Shown here: in pieces, positions 1-17,517 of the stretch
How the letters are laid out: every line of letters begins with the position of its first letter
How positions within the stretch are numbered: the stretch's first letter is position 1
Virus record (IMG/VR): IMGVR_UViG_3300044490_000423
Location: 1-21,249 of that record
DNA length: 21,249 bases
Direction: 5' to 3' (one strand)
From: a virus
Position numbers and translations under genes: made by a program
The notes under the pieces: model-generated
What the model was told of the DNA's origin: nothing
Database searches by the model: none
Seen by the model: the letters and a program-made list of their open reading frames with translations, nothing else

Positions 1-2954
1 GTGATCGCGGCCGCGCCCGTCGCGTCGGTTCGCACCTCCGCGCGGAGGGGCCCGACGCCGCGCAAGTAGAGCGTCTGGTTCCTGGGGCCGTTCTGAATCC
101 AGCCTACTCCCCAGGTCCAGGCGGTGCCCCAGTTGTCAAAGGTGAAGGTCGCCACCTCGAACTCGTAGGCCGGCAAGACGAGCGGGATGAGCTGGTCGTC
201 GAACAGGCCCCATTGAGGCCCCAGGTTCACCGGGCGCAGGATGCCCTTGAGCGGCTGGTTGAGCTTCCAGCGAGGGTCAGGGGCCGTGAAGGAGCCCTCG
301 ACGCCCACGACGGTCGCCGCCTTGCGCGAGTCGTTCGACACCTCGCGCGAGGCCCCGAAGTAGACCTCGATGTGCCTCGAGCCGATGTGGAGCGTGCGCC
401 TGCCCCACATGAGACCCTTCATCTGGCTTTCGAGCTTCTGCTTGTGCAGCATGTCGTCGGCCGTCGCGTAGATGACGAGCGTTCCCTTGCGAGGCGTCAT
501 GGCCGTCTCGAGCGGGAACGTCGTCCAGACGCCGCCCACCGTCTCGGTCATCGTCGGCTCTCGGCCCGCGACCTCGCCCCAGTCGCTCTCTTGCCAGGAC
601 AGCAAGTAGGGCGTCGCCCCGTCGATGGGCGTCGTATCGAGGAACGCGCGCCCGTAGTCGAGGCCCATGATGACCTTGGGCGGTCCTTGCTCGCCACCAG
701 AGCCTGATTGCGTCGCGTCGAGCACATCGAACGTGCCGGCGGTCTGGACCGTGTACCCGTTGGTCATGATGATCACGGGGTAGTCGATGGCCCCTTCGGG
801 CACCGTCGCCTGGATGAGCGTCGCTGTCGCGTTTTGCACGTTAGCCGGCAGCAAGCCGATCATGACGAGCAGGTCGGCCGGGTTGAAGTTCGTGCCCTCG
901 ATGGTCACGAGCTCGCCCACTTTGCCCGCCATCGGTGTGACCGCCGTGATGAGCGGCGGCGACGCCTTGACCGTGAAGGTGCCGGCGCTCTCGGTGCTCT
1001 GATTGTTCACCGTGACGTGAATCTTGCCTGTTTGCGCGAGCTGGGGAACCTTCACGATGAGCTGAGTGGCCGTTGCGGACACCTTTTCGGCCAGCGGCCC
1101 CGAAGCCCCGCCAAAACGCACCTCAGCGTCGGCCGAGAAGTAGTTGCCTGTGATCGTCACCTGGGTTCCAGGCGGGCCTTCCGTGGGTGTAAACCCCGTG
1201 ATCTGAGGCGGCTCCGGGTTGGGCGGGGGCAGTTGCGTGGCATCGCCCGAAGTCGTGATCTCGTAGAGCGCAACCGTCATGCGCTCGGCCTTCAGCGTGT
1301 GGTAGCCGGCCGACGAGGCCACGAGCGTCTGTTCGACGGGCGCGTTGTAGGCGTCCCAGGCGCTGTTCTCGTAGTCCGTCACGCCCGCTTTTGGGCTGAG
1401 CTTCCACATGCGAATATTCGCGCCCTCATCGAACTGGAAGCCCGTCACGTTCGCCTGGCGCAAGGGCAGCTCGTGATCGGCATCGAAGCTCTTGTTCATG
1501 ACGATGAGGTAGAGCTTTTTGCCGTCAGCGGACTTCGCCGCGGCGAGGTGAATGTGCGGCACGTTGAACGCGCCGCCTACCGAGGGCGTGATCGACCAGC
1601 TGGGGCTATCGGGGCACGCAGCCGTCACGATCTCGTCGCCCCAGTTCTTCGCGAGCACGGCCAGGAAGCTGTACCAGGCGGTCTTGTTCGCCGGGTTGCC
1701 CTTGTAGAACAGCACCTCATCGGTGTTGTTCATGCCGTGCCACATGCAGAACGCATTGGACCAGGCATAGCCGTTGTTCATGCAGAACAGCAGCATGTCG
1801 AGGCCGTACATGGAGCCGCCGTAGCCTTGATCCTTGCTGGAGTACCACTTCGTGAAATGCTCGGTGTTGCCCCATTCGTAGGCGCTCGAGCCGCCCGGCA
1901 CGTTGGCGTCGAGCCAGGCGCGAGCCGCCTCGAGCTTCGGGTACGCCCAGGCGCTCATGGAGAGCTTGGTCTTGAGCGTCATGCTCTTGGAATCGCCCCC
2001 GGGCAAGGGATACGACGGGTAATTGTGGGTGATGAACCCGTCGATTTGAAGCGTCGCGCCCGAGGTACCAGGCGCGACCTTGTTCCCGCTCGCGTCTACC
2101 CAGGCGTTGTCGCAAAGCGCCTTGAGGATCCTGGTCGGGTCGAGACCCTGGCCCCAGCCGCCGTTGCCGTCGAAGTGGAGGCCCGTGCCGGTGGTGAACA
2201 TGCACTTGACGCCCAGAGGCCCGCCAGAGCGCGCTGCATCGGCCAGATGAATGGCATGTGCGAGCCTGGCCGCGTAGGTCGCGTACTCGCTGGGAGAACT
2301 CGCGAAATGCGGCTTGGACTCGTCGAGCGTGTACCCGTCGGAGAGATAGGTGCCGTGACCGAACTGGGTTTTCATGGACATTTCGTTGCCCATTTCAAAC
2401 CACTTCACGCCACCCGGGTACGGGTCCGCGCGCCACTTCGCGGGCCTGAGCTGGTCGGCCGGGTCGTTGAGGAACCTATATAAGTCCCTCGCGTGGTTGG
2501 TCGCGCTCCACCCGTTCGTGCCGTGCCGGAGCCAGGCGGAACCGAAGTTCACGACCCAGGTGAACTCGCCGTTCATCTCGATGCCTTCATCCAGGGCGTA
2601 CTTGATGTCGTCGTAAGGGTAGGTGCCGGACTTCCCGAAACACTCGTCGAAGAAGTAGCCGTTCCAGCCCCTGTCGCCCAGGCGATTCGTGCCGTCAATG
2701 GGCTCGTGACCGAAGCGATAGCCCACCTTGCCCCTATAGCTCGCGTACTTGTCCGCGCCCCAGGTGGTGTTGAGGGCCTTCATGGCGGCGAGGATGCCCG
2801 CGCGATACCCCTCTTTGGGTACGCCCGATCCGTCGCCGTAGTTCCAGCCGTAGCCGTGGGGCGCGCCGTAGACATGGTTCCGGTTCGAGCAAATGAGCAT
2901 CGGGCTTGCCCAGAACTTGCGCGTGGCGTTGATCGTGAGTGTCAGCGTTGCCAT
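1..2954 (-). CDS. Virion glycoside hydrolase-TIG-TIG-Dit fusion tail protein (C-terminus cut off)
   Basis: This 984-residue open frame starts at ATG 2954 behind TGGAGG and runs off the left edge without a stop. Residues 1-450 look like a clan-A (beta/alpha)8 glycoside hydrolase: FEMGNEM places a candidate acid/base Glu at 191, and YEWGNTEH places candidate nucleophile Glu at 360 (or 364). Residues about 475-570 look like the beta-sandwich that closes GH51/GH39-type enzymes (YLIVMNKSFD, then an N/S-rich strand and MTVALYEI). Two IPT/TIG domains follow (about 583-660 and 667-745; ITGFTPTEGPPGTQVTITG is the first signature). From about 755 the sequence resembles siphovirus distal tail protein, including GSFTAPDPRW. 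Family knowledge suggests a baseplate enzyme that cleaves a surface polysaccharide; GH51 is the nearest family by eye, and substrate is unknown. It follows the hub gene, with a plus-strand gene between them. Confidence 0.8.
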   Translation of the reverse strand, partial: MATLTLTINATRKFWASPMLICSNRNHVYGAPHGYGWNYGDGSGVPKEGYRAGILAAMKALNTTWGADKYASYRGKVGYRFGHEPIDGTNRLGDRGWNGYFFDECFGKSGTYPYDDIKYALDEGIEMNGEFTWVVNFGSAWLRHGTNGWSATNHARDLYRFLNDPADQLRPAKWRADPYPGGVKWFEMGNEMSMKTQFGHGTYLSDGYTLDESKPHFASSPSEYATYAARLAHAIHLADAARSGGPLGVKCMFTTGTGLHFDGNGGWGQGLDPTRILKALCDNAWVDASGNKVAPGTSGATLQIDGFITHNYPSYPLPGGDSKSMTLKTKLSMSAWAYPKLEAARAWLDANVPGGSSAYEWGNTEHFTKWYSSKDQGYGGSMYGLDMLLFCMNNGYAWSNAFCMWHGMNNTDEVLFYKGNPANKTAWYSFLAVLAKNWGDEIVTAACPDSPSWSITPSVGGAFNVPHIHLAAAKSADGKKLYLIVMNKSFDADHELPLRQANVTGFQFDEGANIRMWKLSPKAGVTDYENSAWDAYNAPVEQTLVASSAGYHTLKAERMTVALYEITTSGDATQLPPPNPEPPQITGFTPTEGPPGTQVTITGNYFSADAEVRFGGASGPLAEKVSATATQLIVKVPQLAQTGKIHVTVNNQSTESAGTFTVKASPPLITAVTPMAGKVGELVTIEGTNFNPADLLVMIGLLPANVQNATATLIQATVPEGAIDYPVIIMTNGYTVQTAGTFDVLDATQSGSGGEQGPPKVIMGLDYGRAFLDTTPIDGATPYLLSWQESDWGEVAGREPTMTETVGGVWTTFPLETAMTPRKGTLVIYATADDMLHKQKLESQMKGLMWGRRTLHIGSRHIEVYFGASREVSNDSRKAATVVGVEGSFTAPDPRWKLNQPLKGILRPVNLGPQWGLFDDQLIPLVLPAYEFEVATFTFDNWGTAWTWGVGWIQNGPRNQTLYLRGVGPLRAEVRTDATGAAAI

Positions 2955-3067
2955 CGGATGCCTCCAGCGAAAAGCGACCGGGAAGCCCCAGCCGCCTTCA
3001 AAGGTTAAGAGAACCGCTGAACTAAAATAATAGGTAGATAACCACTCTTAGTTGAAAGGAAAACGAG
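2955..3067. promoter_or_regulatory. AT-rich divergent spacer, possible promoter of the plus-strand cargo gene
   Basis: This 113-base divergent spacer separates the start of the minus-strand tail enzyme (2954) from the start of the plus-strand 100-residue gene (3068). Its right half (3005-3060) is clearly richer in A and T than the surrounding phage DNA. TAAAAT at 3023-3028 matches the -10 consensus at five of six bases, but no -35 hexamer lies at a good distance (TTAAGA at 3005-3010 is too close). A strong ribosome binding site, AAAGGA, lies at 3055-3060. A plus-strand promoter is an inference from composition and orientation. Confidence 0.35.
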
Positions 3068-3370
3068 ATGAATTATTTGACATTGGGATTTCGCGTCTTC
3101 GAGGTGCAAGAACGAGCCGAGGCTTATCACCTGGTCCCCTTCCACACCGCGAAGCAAGCCGCCTACGGCGACGACATGAAGGCCGGCGACCTCGACTTCG
3201 ACCCGCTCAACGCCGCCCACCGCGCTCAATTGGTGCGCGTTGACGCGGCCCCCACGATCATCCGAAAGGATCCCGCGCACCGCAAGCAAGACGCCGAGGC
3301 GTTCATCGCCTCGCTCGAGCAGGACGAGCGCACGAGGGCCGAGTCGCAGCTGCGTGAATGGCTGCGCTAG
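3068..3370 (+). CDS. Plus-strand cargo protein of unknown function, 100 residues
   Basis: The ORF starts at ATG 3068, seven bases after AAAGGA, and codes for a soluble, charged protein (N-terminus MNYLTLGFRVFEVQERAEAY, C-terminus SQLREWLR) with no signal peptide or membrane segment. I do not recognise the family. It is transcribed against the tail genes. Its TAG stop (3368-3370) overlaps the TAG stop of the convergent hub gene (3369-3367 on the minus strand) inside one CTAG. Body codon use is GC-rich like the phage genes, unlike the PIN gene further right, so it may have resided in this lineage for longer. The strong ribosome binding site and its own AT-rich upstream region argue that it is real and not a shadow of minus-strand coding. 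A phage moron (host-range, exclusion or lysogeny gene) is the likeliest role by context only. Confidence 0.65.
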   Translation: MNYLTLGFRVFEVQERAEAYHLVPFHTAKQAAYGDDMKAGDLDFDPLNAAHRAQLVRVDAAPTIIRKDPAHRKQDAEAFIASLEQDERTRAESQLREWLR

Positions 3371-5619
3371 GCGTAATCTGCCACCTCGAGCGTCATCGCG
3401 GGAGCCTCCCAATCGGGGCTCTCGCGAAACCCTACCACGAGCCGATGCAGCGTGCCGCCTGTTGCCGGGTCGTAAAGCTTGATGCTGTCGCCGAGCTGCA
3501 CCTGGGGCTCGAGCACCACGTCGATCTCCTGCGCGGTCGCACGGCGCATGACATCCACCAGGTGCGCCCTGGCGAGTTCCTTGGCGCGCTGCCGGCTCAC
3601 GGCGCCCATCTCGATGAGCTTTGTCCGGTGTTTCCACCATTCAGCCCGGTACGTCGTCAGGTCGTCGGACCGGTTCTCGTTGACGAGCCAGCGTTTCAAA
3701 AGGTCGGTCGCCACGACGAGTTCGAAGCCATCGGTGGTTTCCACCCAGGTGCCGATTTCGCCGTCGTGGTCGCGCAGCATGGCCACGGCTTCAAGCACCC
3801 GGTCTACTTTCAGCTCGACGTGATAGAGCCTGGGCGCGCTCACGACGCTGGACGCGCCCACCTCGATGACGAGCCAGGTGGGCCCGGGGTCGCTGGCGCT
3901 CACCATGCCCTTGAGGTCGCCCACGGACAGGTCCTTCGCCTGGCCGTGATGCGCGACCTGATAGCCGGGCAGATACCACGCTTGCGACGTGTCCGGCGCC
4001 CCTCCCACATCAGGGGCGAGCATGATCTTCGCCTCGCCCTCGAAGCGCAGCTTGAGGCTCTTGAACCGCTCGAGGTGATTGAAGGGGTACTGCACGCGCA
4101 TGGCCACGCCGGCGGCAGTGGGCTCGGCGAAGGTGTCGTCGCCCGGCGCGAGCGCCGCGTAGGGGTTTTTTGCCATGATGCCCGCCGCGAGCGCGCTCCA
4201 GTTGGGGTCCTGGTCCTCCAAGACGGAGCGAACCACGACGCGGGTGAAGAACTCGGGCGGCTCGCGATCGCGCAGGCCCTTGACCGAGCCGAGCGTGAGC
4301 TGCGGGCGCGTGCTCTGGACGAAGTAACGCCCGCGCGGCAGGCCCTCCTCGTCGTCGTAGAACACGTAGTTGGGAGGCAACGCCCCTGCGACGACTTGCA
4401 AGAGCTTGTCGCCCTTGTCGGCCTGGTCGAACTCGGCCACGGTCAGCCCGCTGAACTCGAAGCCGCCGTAGTATTCGTTCAAGGTCGGAAGTGCCCCCGC
4501 AAGCTCGTAGAGCCGGCCCGCCAGGGCCTCGGGGCTGTTGGCCCAGTTGCTCGTGTCGGGCCAGGCGAGGCCCTTCGCGCCCACGAAACAGACTTCTCCG
4601 CCCAGCACGTCGTCCGTATCGAATACGAGGCCCCGTGTGCCGACGTATCGGAACTGTCCGCGCTCGAGCGCGAAGTCCCAGTCGGAGGCGAGCGCCTTCG
4701 TGGCTGCGCCCGTGCCGGCGCCCACGCGGGTGTAGATGATCGGGCGCGAGCCCGCTGGCGCGAAGTAGCGGCAGTAGTCGAAATTCGCCTCGGCAATCGC
4801 CTCGACCGAGGGCTCGTCGCCCGAAAGCTCGTAGGCATCGGTCGCGCCTGGCGTCGTGAAGTCGTCGAACCTGGGGAACGTCGAGGGCGCGACCCAGGCG
4901 ATCACGACCCGCGCCGTTAGCTCGTAAGCGGTGCCGGCGGCCGGGGCCTGCGAAGTCCAGTTGACCTCGATGGGCCCGCTCTCGGTCATCCGAAGCACGA
5001 AGTGCGTGCCGGCGGTGCGGGTCTGCGTCACGCCCTGAGCGTCCTTCCAGCGGGCCTCGGCGACCATCGCGCCCGAGTGGGGTCGCCAGACGGCGTTCAC
5101 CGGGTAGGGATCGTTCCCGCTCGAGGCCCTGACAAGGTAGGCGCTGTGCAGGGCCACCACGGGGCGCAGCACGAGCCCGGCGTTCGCCCCCGGCGTGAGG
5201 ACCTGAGCCCGGTGGTGCAGCTCGGCATCCAGAGCGGCGAGGCGCTGAGACTCGGAGTAGGCCGTCACCTTGAGGGAGGTCACGACTGCGCCCCCGCTCA
5301 CCGCCCAGCCCTTGTCGAGCGCCCAGACGTGGCCCCGGAACCGCTCGAATCGCTGCCCATTGACGATCTCGGCGTAGGTGACGCGCCGCTGCTCCTTGAA
5401 CAGGGCGAGCATGGCATCGCTAGGGACCAGTTCGAGGTCGAGGCGCATCACCGGGCTCCTCGATAGGACGGGCGACTGACTTCTGGCAGGGCGGGAGATG
5501 ATCAACTCCGAGGGAACGACCGTTTTGCCGCCCGCCTCGTCGATGACGGTCAAGATAGGGTAGATGCGGATCTTCCGCTCGTCGAAGGCCGCTTTGGTGG
5601 CTTGAAGCAAGGGAATCAT
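3367..5619 (-). CDS. Tail hub / tail-associated protein (Tal-like)
   Basis: A 750-residue protein starting at ATG 5619 behind AGGAG. It lies directly downstream of the tape measure gene, where siphoviruses encode the baseplate hub. The N-terminal part (about 1-130; the stretch from IYPILTVIDEAGG through RFRGHVWALDKGW) is beta-rich and ends in SESQRLAALDAELHHR. The last 100 residues carry VVLEPQVQLGDSIKLYD followed by GTLHRLVVGFRESPD and MTLEVADYA, the beta-barrel style ending seen in gp27/Tal-type hub proteins. The middle is long and beta-rich, perhaps a receptor-facing insertion. I see no catalytic motif. By family knowledge such proteins close the tail tip and contact the tape measure C-terminus. 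The assignment rests mostly on position and the C-terminal pattern. Confidence 0.65.
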   Translation of the reverse strand: MIPLLQATKAAFDERKIRIYPILTVIDEAGGKTVVPSELIISRPARSQSPVLSRSPVMRLDLELVPSDAMLALFKEQRRVTYAEIVNGQRFERFRGHVWALDKGWAVSGGAVVTSLKVTAYSESQRLAALDAELHHRAQVLTPGANAGLVLRPVVALHSAYLVRASSGNDPYPVNAVWRPHSGAMVAEARWKDAQGVTQTRTAGTHFVLRMTESGPIEVNWTSQAPAAGTAYELTARVVIAWVAPSTFPRFDDFTTPGATDAYELSGDEPSVEAIAEANFDYCRYFAPAGSRPIIYTRVGAGTGAATKALASDWDFALERGQFRYVGTRGLVFDTDDVLGGEVCFVGAKGLAWPDTSNWANSPEALAGRLYELAGALPTLNEYYGGFEFSGLTVAEFDQADKGDKLLQVVAGALPPNYVFYDDEEGLPRGRYFVQSTRPQLTLGSVKGLRDREPPEFFTRVVVRSVLEDQDPNWSALAAGIMAKNPYAALAPGDDTFAEPTAAGVAMRVQYPFNHLERFKSLKLRFEGEAKIMLAPDVGGAPDTSQAWYLPGYQVAHHGQAKDLSVGDLKGMVSASDPGPTWLVIEVGASSVVSAPRLYHVELKVDRVLEAVAMLRDHDGEIGTWVETTDGFELVVATDLLKRWLVNENRSDDLTTYRAEWWKHRTKLIEMGAVSRQRAKELARAHLVDVMRRATAQEIDVVLEPQVQLGDSIKLYDPATGGTLHRLVVGFRESPDWEAPAMTLEVADYA

Positions 5620-13929: not shown

Positions 13930-15114
13930 TCAGTTCTTGATGCCCTTGAGCCGCGCCACCGACAGGGTCGAGTAGAGCGCGGTGCCGGCATACCACTTCA
14001 CGCGGTAACGCTCGGCATCCTTGTCTTGAACCGTACCGACCGGCTGGACCCGGATGCCCGCGGAGGCGCCACCGAAGAGGCCCTGGAAGGCCCCCTGGCC
14101 GATGCGCACCGCGTAGACCGAGACGGTGTTGTTGGCCGCGCCCTGCTGCTCATTGGCCATGACGAACTCGCTCTTCAGCACCGGCGCGCCGTTGAGCGTG
14201 AGCACCGGCCGGCCGAAATTGGGCAGCTGGAGCATGGCCGAGTCCGTGCCACCTGCCACGCGCAGAAGCGCCTTGTACGAGCGGATGGTGCGCTCATTCA
14301 TGAGGTAGCAACTCACGGGCCCGCCCTTGACCTTGTCCGCGAGCTGGTCGAGCAGGTCCCAGTTGAGGTCGGCACCGTTGGGGCCCGCCTCGATGGTCTG
14401 GGTGGGCACCACCAGGTGCTTGAGGCCCGTGAAGCTCTTGGTCTCCGTCGCCGTGAGGGTGATGGTGGCATCCGCCGCACCCTTGTTCGCGGGGTTGAGC
14501 GTGAGCCTCAGGTACTTCGAGGGCATCTCGGAGCGCACGACCACCTGGCCCGTCGCGCCAGGCAGGGCCACCCAGGCGCCGGGGTTTACGTCCCCCGGGG
14601 CGGTGTAGCGCACCTGAGACCCGTCGGCGTCGAGCTCGAGGTAGCCCTTGCCCTTGCCGTGGTTGTCGGACACCTCGTCGACCGAGACGACGAAGCCCGC
14701 GGGAGCACCCGCGATGTTGCCCCCCAGCACCTGGAAGGCGGCCCCATTGATGAGGGCGTGGCGGAACTTCCGGGCCACCGCCTTGGTCTTCATGCCGACC
14801 TGAATCGCGGTCTGGTCGTTCGTGTCGCCCATCGTCTCGTCGAGGAACGCATCGACGTCCACGTCGCCGAGGATGGCGCGCAGCACGACCGTGATCTCCT
14901 CGACGGTGCCGGCGCTCTCGTCGATGGTGTCGTTGGGCGCGTAGAAGTCGGCTTCCGGCAGGGCGAGCTCGCGGTTGTACACGAGCGACTTGCCCGAAAG
15001 GCCCCGGAAGTCGAGCACGTTGAAGAGATCGTCTTCGGTGTAGATCTCCTCGATGAGGCCGCTCATCAGCTCGTCTTGCGAGAGCCGCTCGGCCACTTCC
15101 TTCAAAAGAGGCAT
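13930..15114 (-). CDS. Major capsid protein (HK97-fold type)
   Basis: A 394-residue protein from ATG 15114 with AAAGGAG about eight bases upstream. It follows the scaffold gene and has the size and texture of an HK97-fold major capsid protein: an acidic helical N-terminal arm (KEVAERLSQDELMSGLIEEI), an extended-loop region (ALPEADFYAPNDTIDESAG), a long spine-helix candidate (DTNDQTAIQVGMKTKAVARK), and a closing domain with LPNFGRPVLTLNGAPVLKSE and IGQGAFQGLFGG. Residues about 150-225 (from NHGKGKGYLELDADGSQVRY through ATITLTATETKSF) look like an extra beta domain inserted in the core and could project outward. It is probably the most abundant product of the module. I see no protease site or crosslinking-residue evidence. 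Confidence 0.85.
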   Translation of the reverse strand: MPLLKEVAERLSQDELMSGLIEEIYTEDDLFNVLDFRGLSGKSLVYNRELALPEADFYAPNDTIDESAGTVEEITVVLRAILGDVDVDAFLDETMGDTNDQTAIQVGMKTKAVARKFRHALINGAAFQVLGGNIAGAPAGFVVSVDEVSDNHGKGKGYLELDADGSQVRYTAPGDVNPGAWVALPGATGQVVVRSEMPSKYLRLTLNPANKGAADATITLTATETKSFTGLKHLVVPTQTIEAGPNGADLNWDLLDQLADKVKGGPVSCYLMNERTIRSYKALLRVAGGTDSAMLQLPNFGRPVLTLNGAPVLKSEFVMANEQQGAANNTVSVYAVRIGQGAFQGLFGGASAGIRVQPVGTVQDKDAERYRVKWYAGTALYSTLSVARLKGIKN

Positions 15115-16336: not shown

Positions 16337-16399
16337 GTGGGTGAATACGTTACAATGGTTGCTTGTTATAGCCAGCCTATTGCTCGGGGCTTTCGATGA
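16337..16399 (+). CDS. Possible 20-residue leader peptide overlapping the PIN start (ATGA)
   Basis: Starting at GTG 16337, six bases after GGAGGAGG, this frame codes for a 20-residue peptide beginning MGEYVTMVACYSQP and ending in TGA 16397-16399. The stop overlaps the PIN start codon as ATGA, the classic arrangement for translational coupling. The sequence itself carries no recognisable signal. It competes with the hydrophobic micro-ORF in another frame that uses the same ribosome binding site; at most one is likely the functional leader. Confidence 0.3.
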   Translation: MGEYVTMVACYSQPIARGFR

Positions 16400-16415
16400 T
16401 TCACCTTGTTCTTGA
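16341..16415 (+). CDS. Possible 24-residue hydrophobic membrane micropeptide
   Basis: Starting at GTG 16341, about ten bases after the GGAGGAGG core, this frame codes for a peptide with a clear membrane-spanning segment, MNTLQWLLVIASLLLGAF, and a short polar tail ending DDSPCS. It runs 20 bases into the PIN gene. Single-pass micropeptides of this sort occur as type I toxins, membrane-protein regulators and superinfection factors, but nothing identifies the class here. A short hydrophobic frame can occur by chance, so confidence is low; the good ribosome binding site and place in front of a cargo gene are the reasons to list it. Confidence 0.3.
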   Translation: MNTLQWLLVIASLLLGAFDDSPCS

Positions 16416-17517
16416 TACGTCCGTTTTGCTTCACGACCCCTATCGCAGGCGTGCGAGCACGGAGACCCTCGAAAACCTCGCGGAACGCGATGTGGTGAAG
16501 GTGCATCTGCCCAACATCGTGGATCGCGAGCTGCGTTCGAACCATCTGAAGCGGATCGACAAGCACTTCGGAGACTCCGCAGCTCAAATCAAGAAAGCGG
16601 CTGATCGGTTGGCACAAGAAGGCATGTATGCCGGACACACCGAAGCTAATGCCCTCAAGCGCAAGCTAGAAGAGGCCTTAGGCGAATTGGAAGCGCTTCG
16701 AGAACGCCTCCCCGAGAGCATCGATGCTTCGATGGCACGCTGGCTCGGAAGACTGAGCGCGGCGCGATACGACTTCGCCCCCGGTCACTCCACGCGCGTC
16801 TTTGAGTCCTATTTTGCCGACTCGCCGCCGTTCGACATCGCCAAGAACAAGGAGAGCAAGGAAAAGCGTGAGCATCTCCCTGATGCTTTCATCCTGGAGG
16901 CCGTGCGCGAGCTCGCTGCGGACCCCGATATCGAAGAGCTGCACGTCGTTTGCCACGACAACAACCTGAGGGCGTGTTGCGCCGCAGTCGCAGGGGTTCG
17001 AGGCTACGAGACAGTCGAGGCGTTCTTGCAAGAGGGACCGTGTCTTCAGTACCTCATCGAGAACGACGAATACGTCTATTTCAACATCGAGCGCATCCGC
17101 GAAGGTGTTTGCCAGTTCACACACACTATCTTCGATGCGGTCAAAGACGACATCTTGCGAGAGCTGAGGCGCATGCACTTGCGGGAGATCAAGAACCTTC
17201 CGTCCAGCTATGATGAATTTGAGGTGAAGCGGTTCAGGCGCCCCTACATCGAGGTCGATTCCGTGGAGCCCTATTGGGACAGCTTGACGGCCACGTTCCA
17301 GATCACCGCGGATTGCGAAGTCGAGTTCGTCGACGAGGAGGATTGGTCGACGGTGATAAGCGACGACCGGACCCTCAACTTCGTAGCGACCATCAAGGTG
17401 GCGCTTCCCGCCGTTCCGGCCGAAAGACTGGAGATCTCGGAAGAAGCCGTTGACGCGCTGATGAGGGCTTCGACGTTCACCCTGGAATCGGTCGATAGCG
17501 TCGAGCTGGAAGACTAG
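16396..17517 (+). CDS. PIN-domain ribonuclease-like cargo protein (DUF4935/PIN_12-like)
   Basis: A 373-residue plus-strand protein from ATG 16396 to TAG 17517. Residues 1-200 carry all four acidic positions of a PIN nuclease: D7 in LVLDTSVLLHDPY, E45 in PNIVDRELRSN, D163 in KREHLPDAFI and D188 in HVVCHDNNLRA. The KREHLPDAF motif and the long helical insertion (about 60-120) suggest the DUF4935/PIN_12 group. The C-terminal half (about 200-373) is acidic and beta-rich, with no domain I can name. The metal site appears intact, so RNA cleavage is the likely activity. Base composition is less GC-rich than the flanking genes, indicating later arrival. No separate antitoxin gene follows. Its stop overlaps the MuF stop in CTAG (17514-17517). 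A role in phage exclusion or host RNA control is inferred from the cargo setting. Confidence 0.85.
   Translation: MIHLVLDTSVLLHDPYRRRASTETLENLAERDVVKVHLPNIVDRELRSNHLKRIDKHFGDSAAQIKKAADRLAQEGMYAGHTEANALKRKLEEALGELEALRERLPESIDASMARWLGRLSAARYDFAPGHSTRVFESYFADSPPFDIAKNKESKEKREHLPDAFILEAVRELAADPDIEELHVVCHDNNLRACCAAVAGVRGYETVEAFLQEGPCLQYLIENDEYVYFNIERIREGVCQFTHTIFDAVKDDILRELRRMHLREIKNLPSSYDEFEVKRFRRPYIEVDSVEPYWDSLTATFQITADCEVEFVDEEDWSTVISDDRTLNFVATIKVALPAVPAERLEISEEAVDALMRASTFTLESVDSVELED

Follow-up and report, generated by a model that had tools for sequence, protein, structure and literature searches.

A GH51-like glycosidase domain at the N-terminus of a predicted tail-associated protein of a siphophage-like virus

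The gene that closes the tail block of the virus record analyzed here probably encodes a polysaccharide hydrolase associated with the tail tip or with a fibre of a siphophage-like virus, and its catalytic domain is an unusual one. The record was examined as a whole (an IMG/VR-type entry of 21,249 bases, referred to as the window), and the gene of interest is cut at its end. The N-terminal ~575 residues of the product are predicted to form an active retaining clan-A glycosidase, in which Glu191 would be the acid/base and Glu360 the nucleophile. The two IPT/TIG beta-sandwiches that follow would serve as a spacer, while the remaining residues, 743-984 (region X), along with whatever lies past the contig end, would fix the protein to the tail tip of the virion. 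On contact, the outward-held enzyme would trim or cut a glycan presumed to lie on the cell surface, allowing the tail to reach its receptor. The virus may therefore open the sugar coat of its host with an unusual tool, an enzyme type scarcely known from phage virions. Coordinates of the relevant features are given in Table 1.

Table 1. Features of the hydrolase gene and of the two tail genes preceding it (window positions).
Feature	Positions	Strand	Basis
GGAGG, ribosome-binding site lying six bases ahead of the ATG at 2954	2961..2965	-	sequence
Open frame of 984 codons: GH51-like hydrolase, two TIG domains and region X	3..2954	-	3' end cut by contig end
GH51-like clan-A glycosidase, residues 1-575 (barrel and C-terminal beta-sandwich by alignment)	1230..2954	-	hhalign Prob 93, E 2.7e-7
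Glu191 codon; predicted to be the acid/base, pairing with E175 of 1pz3	2382..2384	-	alignments
Glu360 codon; predicted to be the nucleophile, pairing with E294 of 1pz3	1875..1877	-	alignments
IPT/TIG domain 1, residues 583-661	972..1208	-	PF01833, E 5.4e-14, 52.4 bits
IPT/TIG domain 2, residues 667-742	729..956	-	PF01833, E 1.9e-10, 41.0 bits
Region X, residues 743-984, presumed tail anchor	3..728	-	no family match
Presumed hub, 750 aa, directly after the tape measure	3367..5619	-	position only; no family match
Presumed tape measure, 1369 aa	5941..10050	-	size, position; an unnamed PHROG matched weakly

A previous sequence-only reading of this DNA had placed a hydrolase, two IPT/TIG linkers and a tail domain in one polypeptide, and the reading frame bears out that these parts belong to a single protein. 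It is unbroken on the minus strand, with no stop before the contig end, and upstream of its ATG there is no earlier in-frame ATG, GTG or TTG start. Since the frame is open from an ATG preceded by GGAGG, and its third-position GC stays between 0.77 and 0.93 in each of 12 consecutive segments, it is a single coding sequence, and nothing in it points to a frameshift. The C-terminus of the protein lies beyond the contig end, which is also the end of the whole virus record. Both IPT/TIG linkers were recovered after the hydrolase, at scores above the curated cut-off of PF01833 (20.9 bits).

The genes of the minus strand read from head to tail: a terminase fragment, portal (phrog_145, E 5e-76), head morphogenesis protein, scaffold, major head protein (phrog_212, E 2e-67) and neck are followed by terminator-like, tube-like and chaperone-like genes, the presumed tape measure, the presumed hub and, running off the contig end, the hydrolase gene, which thus comes last in the tail block. 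The names tape measure, tube and hub were given by size and position.

Searches of residues 1-575 against Pfam, NCBIfam and PHROGs, and single-sequence searches of the PDB, assigned no family at significance; in Pfam no family was found up to E 10, GH51, GH39, GH44, GH79, GH30 and GH5 included, and PF22848 was absent from the record. Below threshold, three of the five PDB sequences listed at E<10 were GH51 arabinofuranosidases, aligned in order at their GNEM motif and C-terminal sandwich, and three of the seven plasmid matches at E<10 were Deinococcus GH51s. The single phage sequence was compared by hhalign with a profile of 11 aligned GH51 proteins, all of them bacterial, and matched it with Prob 93.3, E 2.7e-7 and a score of 61.4 over 372 columns (residues 44-511). 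As a control for bias, the three Deinococcus GH51s, which had been found by their likeness to the query, were left out and 1pz3 was added, giving Prob 90.7, E 1.3e-6 and a score of 56 over ~360 columns. The best of 200 shuffled sequences reached 29 and the best of 200 unrelated open reading frames 24, and three GH5-family proteins gave alignment scores of 15-21, which is noise. The Pfam GH39 model weakly matches GH51 genes and cannot, for that reason, separate GH39 from GH51. Of the family profile comparisons suggested by the previous reading, the one with GH51 was positive when our own profile was used, while the Pfam models of GH51, GH39, GH44 and GH79 were silent. Its proposal of a GH51-like clan-A hydrolase is upheld by these alignments, as is that of a beta-sandwich C-terminal to the barrel, which aligns collinearly with the GH51 sandwich.

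Residues 1 to ~575 are therefore best described as a probable retaining clan-A glycosidase closest to GH51, for which we use the label GH51-like and which we do not file as GH51. The global alignment with GH51s starts at residue 1 of the phage protein, which places the enzyme unit at the very N-terminus; the anchor must then be C-terminal, in region X or beyond the contig. That classical GH51s are mostly exo-acting speaks against the favoured reading. The loops after strands 4 and 5 are longer in the phage domain than in the aligned GH51s, and could turn the pocket into a cleft.

Region X had been read as the distal tail (Dit) part of the protein. This would be a special case of the tail-associated hydrolase favoured here, namely a Dit bearing the enzyme at its N-terminus, so that six copies would surround the end of the tail, and we regard it as doubtful. 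No match to region X was obtained with tblastn, Pfam or PHROGs, and in particular none with Sipho_tail (PF05709), SPP1_Dit or DUF2460, the last of which is the Dit family of gene transfer agents. When compared with a profile made of ten phage Dits and SPP1 gp19.1 (one of the ten, L103, was cut wrongly at the N-terminus, and the test rests on the other nine and SPP1), region X scored 19.65 with Prob 1.5. This borderline score exceeds those of 195 of 200 shuffled sequences (top ~3%) and 199 of 200 open reading frames, with five and one scoring higher, respectively, and the match falls on an N-x-G-x-A segment, the one that follows the Sipho_tail domain. However, correctly cut SPP1-type Dits withheld from the profile were recovered at Prob 96-100, whereas T5 pb9, a genuine Dit but not of that type, scored 13.8, at the level of noise, so that the test is able to confirm an SPP1-type Dit and not to exclude other types. 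By eye, the stretch 'FTAPDPRW' at residues 887-894 resembles Sipho_tail domain ends such as 'FVCPDPYAY', and between the tape measure and the presumed hub there is no other candidate for a Dit. Yet the hydrolase gene itself lies downstream of the presumed hub rather than between tape measure and hub, a place that is unusual for a Dit, with the identity of the hub given by position only. T5 pb9 and Pb3 provided no usable link to region X or to the presumed hub, and the AlphaFold2 models of the whole protein and of region X alone had pLDDT values of ~31, too low for fold comparison. The Dit assignment was thus not borne out and, given the little power of the test, not refuted either. A PDB match of region X to a GH5 mannanase, covering 21 residues at E 0.08, was set aside as chance.

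N-terminally extended Dits do exist, and the premise that Dits always begin with the hexamer-forming domain turned out to be too strict. In the Enterococcus Saphexavirus fHoEfa06, a protein of 1330 aa encoded directly after the tape measure (locus L111:5369-9361) carries ~860 residues before Sipho_tail (862-937), with SPP1_Dit at 1269-1329, both being C-terminal. Like the protein studied here, it combines a long multi-domain N-terminal part with further domains in one polypeptide of the tail block, but its Sipho_tail and SPP1_Dit matches are clear and the order tape measure-Dit-Tal is canonical. Its N-terminal extension gave a weak Ig-domain match and no glycosidase match. Carbohydrate-binding insertions are well described in the so-called evolved Dits (PMC7291167, PMC10688798), which share with our protein a sugar-directed module on a tail protein; there, binding modules are inserted inside the Dit, whereas here the hydrolase is N-terminal and the Dit identity unproven. 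A catalytic 'evolved Dit', that is, a Dit with a complete and active GH51-like glycosidase at its N-terminus and six enzymes per virion around the tail end, seems to us unlikely. In roseophage R4C the tail tip bears sugar-directed accessory domains, and its authors note links between Dit and glycoside hydrolase proteins (PMC10276861). The tail tips of R4C and RcGTA resemble our case in having such accessory domains on tail-tip proteins, and differ from it in that their Dit family, DUF2460, is absent here; in this comparison our protein had no match to Pfam's models at E<10.

The active site was compared in five alignments, three by MAFFT and two by hhalign, with 1pz3 as reference. In all of them the two glutamates proposed earlier as catalytic fall on the acid/base and nucleophile of GH51 (Table 1), and N190, H310, Y312, W97 and W370 on N174, H244, Y246, W99 and W298, respectively. 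The companion entry 1pz2 has Ala at the acid/base position E175, and E294 is the nucleophile of GH51; in the phage protein, Glu191 sits in a GNE motif, and going by the alignments Glu191 would follow strand 4 and Glu360 strand 7 of the barrel. Three other positions, which line the sugar pocket in GH51, have changed: N26 takes the place of E29 wherever the stretch could be aligned and H406 that of Q351, while no residue lines up steadily with N74. The catalytic pair is thus retained and the sugar pocket altered, and it is for this reason that the domain is called GH51-like and arabinose is not named as its target; an arabinose-containing glycan, one of the kinds proposed previously, is a possible target only. 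Altogether, GH51 alpha-L-arabinofuranosidases such as 1pz3 and the products of the Deinococcus plasmid genes share with the phage protein a collinear barrel and C-terminal sandwich, both catalytic Glu and the five neighbouring equivalents, but differ from it in sequence (~21% identity), in the three pocket positions, in the shorter loops after strands 4 and 5, and in lacking the fusion to TIG domains and the location in a tail block.

Judging from these residues, the altered pocket could mean that activity has been lost or changed. The domain might then be a carbohydrate-binding module of a tail adhesin that is no longer catalytic, as sugar binding without cleavage is common among the accessory modules of phages (evolved Dits, PMC7291167). 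The loss of the three pocket positions fits such a role, although both catalytic Glu and their neighbours (the GNE motif, H310 and Y312) have been kept while the rest diverged to ~21% identity, and we find it improbable. That the protein acts outside the virion, as a secreted or metabolic enzyme acquired from a bacterium, is very improbable indeed: classical GH51s are cellular sugar-utilisation enzymes, and the plasmid genes have sugar transporter, solute-binding, ribulokinase and epimerase genes among their neighbours, but the gene lies in the tail block, on the strand of the tail genes and with the codon bias of neighbouring phage genes (GC3 0.88 and 0.89), its hydrolase part is joined in one chain to TIG domains and another region, and no close bacterial relative was found.

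For the tail-associated hydrolase that we favour, no relative with the same domain architecture was found in scans of viral and genome contigs requiring near-exact peptides, nor in the contig with the nearest portal. The viral contigs were scanned with the whole protein, the hydrolase, region X, the presumed hub and a GH51-containing alignment, and neither these nor the genome contigs yielded a close relative; the empty scans mean little, because near-exact peptides were needed and two hand-written DNA patterns among the queries were too strict. Two typical GH51 queries against 50,697 phage records, which would miss diverged GH51-like proteins such as ours, hit nothing but unannotated contigs that carry a phage label ('Bacteriophage sp.' or 'Listeria phage LM 4-11-1 / 4-14-1'), and these contigs may be bacterial DNA. 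A catalytic GH51 in a phage tail was not found in the literature searched, which was covered in part. An enzyme directed at an arabinofuranose polymer of the host envelope is encoded by Gordonia phage GMA6, the GH183 (DUF4185) endo-D-arabinanase (PMC10115798), but this belongs to an unrelated family and its hosts are of mycobacterial type, of which there is no sign here. Here the enzyme occupies the end at which fibres and spikes usually carry their anchor, the N-terminus (PMC10684548).

Most of the enzymes with which phage particles degrade polysaccharides are beta-helix spikes. If the preferred reading is true, the free N-terminus of this tail protein carries a further catalytic scaffold, a retaining glycosidase of GH51 type, mounted in the reverse domain order; a wider range of glycans would then be within reach of phages, and one more way of mounting enzymes on tails would be known.

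The phage itself belongs to an undescribed group, since its portal is at most ~39% identical to those of the described phages compared (Rhizobium, Klebsiella and Pseudomonas phages) and 56% identical to that of one uncultured contig, IMGVR_UViG_3300035703_002461. In this contig, the terminase fragment is 53% identical, whereas the major head protein and tail genes have no detected similarity to ours except for a weak neck match; there is no match to the hydrolase gene, and the proteins encoded after its tape measure do not align with ours above noise. The contrast between portal and terminase on one side and head and tail genes on the other suggests module exchange within this phage group. The major head protein (394 aa, window 13930-15114, minus strand) aligns to most relatives in two pieces covering ~75% of its length, which suggests an inserted domain in the middle. 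In the gap between the presumed hub and the hydrolase gene, an antisense open reading frame of 100 aa (3068-3370, plus strand), to which family searches gave no match, has a ribosome-site-like stretch before its ATG and a third-position GC of 0.81. In addition, a protein with a PIN_12 domain (PF16289, E 1e-16) and no match in PADLOC is encoded at 16396-17517 on the plus strand, opposite to the structural genes and between those for scaffold and head morphogenesis, and looks like a moron-like cargo gene.
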